A stretch of 34,370 nt of DNA from Candidatus Bathyarchaeota archaeon (lineage in GTDB: Archaea > Thermoproteota > Bathyarchaeia > TCS64). The DNA lies in NCBI GenBank assembly GCA_026014875.1, contig JAOZHO010000023.1:1-34370 (forward strand). Direction: 5' to 3'. The position numbers and the translations under genes are program-made. Position 1 is the stretch's first letter, and every line of letters begins with the position of its first letter. The notes under the pieces are model-generated. The model saw only the letters and a program-made list of their open reading frames with translations, searched no databases and had not been told where the DNA came from. Positions 5,132 to 6,431 of this stretch are shown here, one piece after another.

Positions 5132-5184
5132 GTAATCGCCTCGGAATCGGTATTTGTTGGTGTTGGCGGCGATTTAAGGGTTGA

Positions 5185-5359
5185 GGGCAGGCGCCCCTGT
5201 CCCTCGCAGCAAACTCACGGCGTCACAGTCGGGGCTGCGCCCCTCTCGGTCGAGCTCTCTCATCTGTGAGGTTTCCGGCGCCTGCCCGGGCCCGCCTGTA
5301 CCATGTCTGGGTAACCTCGGTTCACTGGGTTGTCCCTTGGCGAGGTCCGTCTGCATGGT
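5185..5359. ncRNA. Highly folded RNA candidate upstream of tyrS, family not recognised
   Basis: Two nested hairpin domains are visible. Domain A is closed by a perfect 11-bp GC-rich stem (5185-5195 with 5277-5287). Inside it are a 6-bp stem (5223-5228 with 5264-5269) and a 5-bp stem with a three-base loop (5231-5235 with 5239-5243). Domain B has ACCATG/CATGGT (5300-5305 with 5354-5359), inside which are ACCTCG/CGAGGT (5314-5319 with 5341-5346) and a GGG/CCC tip. This much ordered pairing is unlikely by chance in the spacer. TATA-like AT-rich stretches near 5410-5450 would suit minus-strand transcription. I could not match SRP RNA or RNase P consensus motifs, so the family and strand stay open. 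Confidence 0.45.
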
Positions 5360-5791
5360 GCGTCGTGTGGCGGGTATGTTAGTCTCGGGGTGTCGGTGTT
5401 TTAATGTTTCCAATTGGGGGTGTGGGGTTATAATGGTAGCATATTATAGCGGGTTTTCGGGCGTGTTTTTCGTGGTTTAATTGGGTGGGGCGCTTTTTCG
5501 GTTGTTTTCGGTGTTCGGCGGGGTTTTCTGGTTTGTTTGGGTGTTGTTTTGGTACTGAATTGCTACTGAATAGCTACTGTTTTGCATGAAGAGTTGGCGG
5601 GGACGGTTTCCGGGTGTTTTTCGGGTTCCTTCCGGTGTTTGGCGGTGTTTTCACGGGTGGATGCGGGACCTCCTGTCGTTCCGAGGAACCGTTTTTTCGT
5701 GGAGGGGGCAACGGAGGGGCTTAACTGGGGATTTATTTCTTGGGGTTTTTTGACTATGTTGAACGTGAAGTCGATGACCTGGTGGTTTCGG
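5360..5791. other. GT-rich non-coding stretch with a short tandem repeat
   Basis: No convincing gene is visible on either strand, and ORFs here are short with no protein-like character. The + strand is extremely G/T-rich (5461-5520 has 23 G and 8 C), although nothing is coded. An 11-base tandem repeat, TACTGAAT(T/A)GC, occurs two and a half times at 5553-5579. AT-rich TATA-like sequences lie around 5430-5450. Confidence 0.5.
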
Positions 5792-5844
5792 CACCAGCGC
5801 CCAGGTCGGCTGGGGAGCGTGGGTTCAAATCCCGCTCCCGGCAC
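5563..5844 (-). pseudogene. Possible integrase N-terminal remnant reading out of the tRNA 3' end
   Basis: The minus strand is open for 93 codons from a GTG inside the tRNA-like 3' end, beginning with residues P-G-A-G-F-E-P-T. Archaeal tyrosine integrases whose gene overlaps their tRNA attachment site often begin with this kind of peptide, because it is simply the complement of the T arm. No catalytic R...HxxR...Y region follows, and the frame closes at the tandem repeat near 5563. The rest is low-complexity Pro/Thr/Lys sequence. It may be an integrase stump or only a chance frame. Confidence 0.2.
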
Positions 5845-5846
5845 TT
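5792..5846 (+). pseudogene. Class II tRNA (Leu/Ser-like) 3'-half remnant, direct repeat copy 1
   Basis: This copy keeps a variable arm (CCCAG, loop GTCGG, CTGGG), a T arm (GTGGG, loop TTCAAAT, CCCGC), and the acceptor 3' strand TCCCGGC with discriminator A and no encoded CCA. A matching 5' acceptor strand and a D arm are absent upstream, so it is not a complete tRNA gene. A CTGGTG/CACCAG hairpin with a seven-base loop lies just 5', but its loop gives no Leu or Ser anticodon. It pairs with the copy at 6377-6431: 55 bases without gaps, 43 identical by my count, including an 18-base perfect core. Confidence 0.6.
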
Positions 5847-5861
5847 ATCGCGTATTTATTT

Positions 5862-6119
5862 TTACCTGTACGCCCCTTTCCGGTGACTAATGCTGTAAAG
5901 AATGACTGAATTCTCTTTCTCGTCTATTATGTAGATCAACCTGTAGTTACCGGCTCTCAAGCTCCATTTACCTGTAAGAGCTCCGCGGAGTGGTTTTCCC
6001 AGTCGTGGATTTGACTCCAAGCTCATTATAAGTGGGTCGAATCTTCGCTTTACTTCTATTTCGAGGCCGCGGAACTCCCTCTCAAAGGTTCGAGTGGTCT
6101 TGAGGCTATATTTCGCCAG
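5862..6119 (-). CDS. RelE/ParE-superfamily toxin without a standard start codon
   Basis: This is an 85-residue toxin of the RelE/ParE type, typically an mRNA interferase or gyrase poison. Its C-terminal half carries the family pattern: G-K-P-L-R-G, then G-K-W-S-L-R-A-G-N-Y-R-L-I-Y, a charged turn, and a closing hydrophobic strand followed by S-H-R-K. The reading frame opens after a TGA only four codons before the conserved start of the protein, and no ATG, GTG or TTG lies between them. The best candidate start is CTG at 6117-6119, giving the frame L-A-K-Y-S. It overlaps the antitoxin stop by 14 bases, so translational coupling is likely. It is more AT-rich than its neighbours, which fits a mobile cassette. 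Confidence 0.82.
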   Translation of the reverse strand: MAKYSLKTTRTFEREFRGLEIEVKRRFDPLIMSLESNPRLGKPLRGALTGKWSLRAGNYRLIYIIDEKENSVILYSISHRKGAYR

Positions 6120-6318
6120 AGCGATTCAGCTCTCCCTTGAATTCGTCGTAATCTCTTACCTTTCCTGCCTTGACGTCCTCATCGGCCTCAGATATGGATT
6201 TTAAGGCTTCTTCGTCCTCGACGATTTCGAGGGTCTCAGTGATCTCCTCCAAGATGTCTCTCATCCTTAGAAGTAGTATCCGGTCATCGTCGGTAAGAAG
6301 AGTGCTCTTATCAATCAC
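6106..6318 (-). CDS. RelB-like antitoxin partner of the RelE-type toxin
   Basis: This 70-residue acidic protein lies directly upstream of the RelE-like toxin gene and overlaps it by 14 bases. Residues 18-40 are a heptad-like helix rich in Leu, Ile and Glu, suitable for dimerisation. The C-terminal D-V-K-A-G-K-V-R-D-Y-D-E-F resembles the toxin-binding tail of RelB/Phd-type antitoxins. The start is GTG at 6316-6318, supported by a strong box A centred about 33 bases upstream, which implies a nearly leaderless message. The pair is probably autoregulated, as is usual for such modules, though no operator is obvious. Confidence 0.75.
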   Translation of the reverse strand: MIDKSTLLTDDDRILLLRMRDILEEITETLEIVEDEEALKSISEADEDVKAGKVRDYDEFKGELNRSGEI

Positions 6319-6345
6319 GTTAAGTCAATCTGTACTGGGAAAAGT

Positions 6346-6356
6346 GGATATTTAAA
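6346..6356 (-). promoter_or_regulatory. Box A of the toxin-antitoxin cassette
   Basis: On the minus strand the sequence GTTTAAATATC lies about 28-38 bases before the antitoxin GTG at 6318. That matches the spacing of an archaeal TATA box for a leaderless transcript. It sits between the gene and repeat copy 2, so the cassette carries its own promoter. Confidence 0.6.
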
Positions 6357-6376
6357 CATCGCTTCAACAGGATTTA

Positions 6377-6431
6377 CACCAAACGTTAGGTCGGATAGAG
6401 AACGTGGGTTCAAATCCCGCCCCCAGCACTT
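6377..6431 (+). pseudogene. tRNA 3'-end remnant, direct repeat copy 2
   Basis: This copy ends the toxin-antitoxin cassette on the right. The T arm (GTGGG, TTCAAAT, CCCGC) and a 3' acceptor strand ending in CAGCA are intact, but the variable arm no longer pairs. Seven of the twelve differences from copy 1 are G-to-A or C-to-T changes, as expected for decay. No 5' tRNA half lies upstream. A T-rich run follows at once. Confidence 0.6.

Follow-up and report, generated by a model that had tools for sequence, protein, structure and literature searches.

Positions 5782-6431 of the window (the 34,370-nt stretch of Candidatus Bathyarchaeota DNA analyzed here) probably constitute a minimal mobile relBE cassette that has its own promoter, is bounded by att sites formed from the 3' part of a tRNA-Met gene, lacks a recombinase, and would be served by an integrase acting in trans. 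The best reading of the sequence comparisons is that such cassettes entered tRNA 3' ends by site-specific insertion, with the window copy at a secondary site. Directly observed were the sites and their tRNA-Met origin, arrays whose gene units have such sites as boundaries, and the presence of one unit at different loci in two genera. The window's own genome (G000) comprises 2.5 Mb on 51 contigs, and the relatives with which it was compared were Candidatus Bathyarchaeota MAGs.

Att-like repeats and their tRNA-Met source

The original prediction described two 55-base repeats of a tRNA end with 43 identical positions and an 18-base perfect core. Alignment of positions 5792-5846 with 6377-6431 confirmed these values, and the match was far above the best 55-nt match obtained when the surrounding 2.8 kb was shuffled 20 times (35 identical positions). 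With 2 mismatches allowed, GTGGGTTCAAATCCC occurred exactly twice in the window, against a chance expectation of 0.09. The full sites were longer than the 55 nt described earlier, at 65 nt each. The left site (5782-5846, plus strand; 76.8 bits with the site model) comprises an intron-like hairpin remnant, the T arm, the acceptor 3' strand and CACT, and was 85% identical over 61 nt by BLAST to the intact tRNA-Met of the same genome. It is preceded by approximately 40 nt of non-tRNA sequence (5745-5783, plus strand) in common with a fragment at C28:97720 (81.6% over 103 nt, including the site). The right site (6367-6431, plus strand; 65.2 bits) is a variant form of the tRNA-Met 3' part, GGATTTACACC..ACGTTAGGTCGG, that is common to the window and to genome G016 and travels with the cassette. 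The spacing of 585 from start to start and the presence of one promoter and a relBE pair between the repeats were likewise borne out. Comparison of the window with Rfam returned no gathering-level match.

Contig C28 of the same genome contained the repeat in four places, two of which were complete genes, in agreement with the expectation of an intact tRNA elsewhere in the genome. The complete genes were identical to each other (GCCGGGG...CTCATGA...GTGGGTTCAAATCCCATCCCCGGCA; the acceptor 5' strand had been predicted as GCCGGGA) and correspond to tRNA-Met(CAU) with approximately 30 extra bases 3' of the anticodon stem. Since two other genes with a CAT anticodon were found, the C28 gene is most likely the elongator tRNA-Met. 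Across 15 distinct intact tRNA-Met genes of the order, the whole structure was 96.4% paired, and the extra bases formed a hairpin with compensatory changes at 2 lower-stem pairs and 1 upper-stem pair; some upper-stem pairs were broken in several genomes. By inspection, a bulge-helix-bulge motif is possible, with the ATCC before and GGAT after the hairpin pairing as its central helix. These extra variable-region bases therefore appear as an intron-like hairpin and a putative intron. Assignment of the repeats to a class II tRNA (Leu or Ser), as first proposed, was rejected on the basis of the CAU anticodon and of the hairpin in the 15 genes, the supposed variable arm being this covarying intron-like structure. 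In both tRNAs that received relBE units (Met, and Leu-TAA at 1107-1217 of locus L153), the att region contains an intron or intron-like insert, which agrees with a proposed link between integration and tRNA introns (PMC3293823).

Neither window repeat has a 5' tRNA half, as would be expected if the repeats were the 3' halves of a split (trans-spliced) tRNA, a possibility raised in the original prediction. However, two complete gene copies exist, and array fragments no longer match the acceptor strand (for example, ...CACCCAACTT and ...CTCTTATCTC), making this explanation scarcely credible. The objection that many scattered copies would mark these sequences as ordinary dispersed repeats does not apply to four tRNA-Met fragments (window included) and two intact genes in this genome, and approximately nine fragments in G016. 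Further, the fragments lie downstream of the tRNA in one direction and bound discrete gene units, supporting a history of insertion. As in elements of the SSV/pNOB8 type, the att site lies in the tRNA 3' part and a direct repeat is present at the far end. Collectively, these data support the view that the repeats are tRNA 3' ends acting as att-like boundaries.

The relBE pair and its locus in the window

The proposal that a toxin-antitoxin (TA) pair is the sole cargo between the repeats was supported. The relE toxin gene (5862-6119, minus strand; 85 aa) matched PF05016 with 34.6 bits (cut-off, 23), and its predicted product is a member of the RelE/ParE superfamily. The relB gene (6106-6318, minus strand; 70 aa, GTG start) lies directly upstream of relE and overlaps it. 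relB had no protein family match of its own and is a putative antitoxin gene by its position, size and layout; the same relB/relE layout was found in G016 and in G021. Thus, a RelE/ParE-fold toxin of predicted toxicity is paired with a small overlapping upstream gene, assigned as the antitoxin by layout, as in RelBE type II systems. A TATA-like box read directly from the sequence, TTTAAATAT (about 6349-6357, minus strand), lies approximately 30 nt before the relB start and just inside the right repeat and would provide the promoter.

The relE reading frame contains no ATG, GTG or TTG start. A CTG codon within the relB end (6117-6119; CTGGCGAxxTATAG), taken as the relE start, was conserved in position in three genera (the window, G016 at locus L049, and G021 at L153), and translational coupling of relE to relB from this non-standard start is possible. 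Relatives of relE were present in 45 of the 257 Bathyarchaeia genomes, while none was detected in IMG/VR. In G016, relE was disrupted by a 10-nt deletion, indicating that not every copy of the cassette is a working TA system.

The unit lies beside the TyrRS gene. In the empty-site comparison suggested by the original prediction, nine relatives, one of them of the same genus (G001), had no such site at the corresponding position beside TyrRS. Consistent with the further suggestion that the window holds a secondary site, no intact tRNA lies beside the unit, the intact tRNA-Met copies being on C28. The gene order TyrRS-DPP-M14 peptidase was the same in G011 as in the window, making an assembly chimera unlikely.

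A T/G-rich repeat is present upstream of the left site, and a related stretch follows tRNA-Met on C28. Copies of this noncoding dispersed repeat (GGTACTGAATNGCTACTGAAT, GGSGGKKTTTTC; window 5400-5700) also flank at least eight tRNA genes of the genome on their 3' side and in the same orientation (L074, L075, L076, L083, L086, L087, L100 and L102). Interpretation of 5420-5784 as a noncoding cassette, and of GGSGGKKTTTTC as integrase arm sites, was dropped because of the recurrence of the same sequence beside these other tRNA genes. The repeat follows a conserved, structured RNA-like element beside TyrRS (5170-5420), for which RNAalifold gave 57 pairs, 11 of them with compensatory change among four genomes. 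This element matched no Rfam family, and in four other relatives only its first ~30 nt (TTTAAGG.TTGAGGGCAGG) are left.

Recurrence of the unit in tRNA arrays of related archaea

The same unit was found in G016, which belongs to another genus of the same family, at C16:11259-11858. The common extent (window 5809-6420, plus strand) spans 612 bp at 92.5% identity, compared with 77.9% identity for TyrRS DNA as a housekeeping comparison between the two genomes. The shared stretch begins inside one site and ends inside the other, and no similarity was found on either side outside the sites. On G016:C16, an intact tRNA-Met is followed by nine fragments in the same direction, spread over 12 kb and spaced 0.46-2.84 kb apart, and the relBE unit is one of approximately nine units in this array. 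The array cargo comprises an LTD/metallo-beta-lactamase protein, a ParE-type TA pair, relBE, a unit of SOUL, MsrA, PEMT and heliorhodopsin, a radical SAM protein, an MFS transporter, and a second radical SAM protein. The heliorhodopsin gene of this array unit (L049 13776-14600) matched PF18761 with 304.7 bits. Going by its isolate name, the G016 bathyarchaeote is of Black Sea origin (750 m).

Several G016 blocks were also present in G002, partly in different order, and the heliorhodopsin unit of G002 terminates at a site, as does that of G016. The finding that some units common to arrays of different order terminate at a site supports a cassette organization. As in additive genomic islands, gene units downstream of a tRNA and each bounded by its direct repeat were found at G016:C16, at C28 and at the tRNA-Leu of G021; content differed among relatives, and cassettes were common across lineages. 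In a survey of 257 genomes of the class, only this order had strong repeats in addition to the intact gene; the count is a census and not a test, since the site model was trained on these same sites. Site scores were no lower with distance from the tRNA, and a simple order of insertion at the tRNA is therefore not supported.

An independent case was found in G021, another genus of the family, whose relE relative encodes a protein 53% identical to that of the window. Here, a 657-bp unit with relB and relE as its only cargo follows an intact, intron-containing tRNA-Leu(TAA) and is closed by a perfect 48-nt copy of the 3' end of that tRNA. The target tRNA differs from that of the window unit, while the architecture is identical. 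Among the sequence-based arguments for insertion of TA-only cassettes at tRNA 3' ends, this case carries the most weight.

Other repeats of related kind were observed. In G000, three fragments lie downstream of tRNA-Gln(TTG) (L114, G000:C26:8072-12210), with a RelA/SpoT-domain protein among the genes between them, and one fragment lies downstream of tRNA-Pro(GGG) (L115, G000:C50:128793-130867). In G197 (L167), a distant relBE pair is placed between direct repeats of 59 nt with 98% identity (1228-1286 and 2170-2228), ending ...AATCCCGGCYGGAGCACCA and ..GGAGCACCA, which are tRNA-like. This pair was not counted as a case, as its flanking repeats were not recognized as tRNA.

Candidate recombinase and relation to known systems

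No PF00589 protein was found on the array contigs of the window and G016 (C16), and neither the window unit nor G016:C16 contains a tyrosine integrase. In G014, a tyrosine integrase gene (L058:4674-5768) lies directly upstream of tRNA-Met, with the R, HxxR, H, Y pattern recognizable by inspection, and relatives of it adjoin tRNA-Met in G009 and G010. No intact copy of this family was found in G000 or G016. IMG/VR gave a match to the candidate over 34 residues only, and no IMG/VR contig had the site core or the tRNA-Leu site. Identification of the candidate as the integron integrase IntI was rejected, as it scored 57.8 bits against TIGR02249 of NCBIfam, far below the cut-off of 265.

On C28 of G000, the intact tRNA-Met copies are accompanied by further 3' fragments and by a decayed relative of the candidate integrase, which has a fragment on one side and the second intact tRNA on the other. 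This relic is what would be expected if the units were leftovers of larger integrative elements that inserted serially at tRNA-Met and decayed, with TA pairs and useful genes kept between attR fragments, in the case of the TA pair owing to the toxicity of losing it. Archaeal integrated elements are also known to target tRNA sites repeatedly, in tandem (PMC6563490, PMC8371274). However, the 585-bp unit recurs with the same ends at different loci in two genera, a relBE-only unit of 657 bp lies between perfect 48-nt repeats, and deletion would need to end at the same minimal unit every time. An origin of the units as such remnants is therefore unlikely. Ordinary homologous recombination between tRNA-like repeats could also have moved the cassette in the absence of a site-specific recombinase, given similar sites of 44-65 nt and T/G-rich repeats near both loci that could recombine as well. 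The sites, however, are only ~86% identical with an 18-nt perfect core, which is short for such exchange, and one-directional arrays at tRNA targets fit known integrase att sites (PMC8371274); this route is very improbable.

For the preferred reading, site-specific insertion of cassettes, we infer a recombinase, a circular intermediate, retention by TA addiction and a route to the secondary site. A tyrosine integrase, which may be of the family found beside tRNA-Met in G014, G009 and G010, would be supplied in trans and act on the cassettes. The T-arm region of a circular cassette would recombine with the tRNA-Met gene or an earlier fragment, so that every insertion would add one cassette and one 3' fragment in a fixed direction. 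Since both flanks are sites with one consensus, the recombination point cannot be fixed. The cassette may have reached the window by insertion at a pre-existing fragment or, alternatively, by exchange via the T/G-rich repeats at both places, which would have moved a piece of the array from tRNA-Met. TA addiction would then keep the cassette in place.

Additive flexible genomic islands, in which direct repeats of the tRNA end delimit cassettes at tRNA genes, have been described in bacteria, namely Ca. Actinomarinales (PMC7771536), Ca. Methylopumilus (PMC10872708; down to ~330 bp with one gene) and Alteromonas (PMC5217437). The arrays described here resemble these islands in their variable content and exchange between genera, but differ in having an archaeal host, an intron-like tRNA insert as part of the site, a TA-only unit at two different tRNA genes, and one copy away from any intact tRNA. 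With SSV/pNOB8-type elements (PMC8371274, PMC3293823), they share att sites in the tRNA 3' part, a rebuilt tRNA with a tyrosine integrase gene next to it (G014 and G009), and scattered tRNA fragments, as produced by a recombinase-coding element in Caldiarchaeum (PMC3293823). Unlike those elements, the window unit and the G016 array contain no integrase, replication or conjugation genes, and the units measure 0.46-2.84 kb. Archaeal integrons exist and use attC and IntI (PMC9668308). Arrays of small cassettes with same-direction sites, TA cassettes, and the lack of an adjacent integrase, with presumed action in trans, are features in common with integrons and archaeal CALINs (PMC9668308), whereas the present sites are tRNA 3' parts rather than attC and the window unit brings a promoter-like box of its own. 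The open-licence literature yielded no description of archaeal cassettes that lack an integrase, hold only a TA pair and lie at intron-containing tRNAs. As far as we found, the new features are the host, which is archaeal, an att site that contains an intron, and a cassette with a TA pair as its only cargo, while the overall kind is known from bacteria.

A wider proposal is that Bathyarchaeia possess an integron-like, non-integron system in which a tyrosine integrase beside tRNA-Met gathers and shuffles integrase-free, mostly single-gene cassettes, the site consists of the T arm and intron, and TA cassettes adapted to different tRNA targets stabilize the array. We advance this proposal tentatively, as a possibility that is rather doubtful at present.

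Insertion of this kind would give uncultured archaea a route to acquire genes singly at tRNA genes, among them TA pairs, a heliorhodopsin/MsrA cluster, radical SAM enzymes and a transporter. As a clear-cut example of a mobile unit stripped down to a TA pair and two att sites, the window unit opens to direct testing the question of whether TA pairs are themselves mobile units. Should the integrase act in trans, archaea would possess an integron-like system based on tRNA genes.
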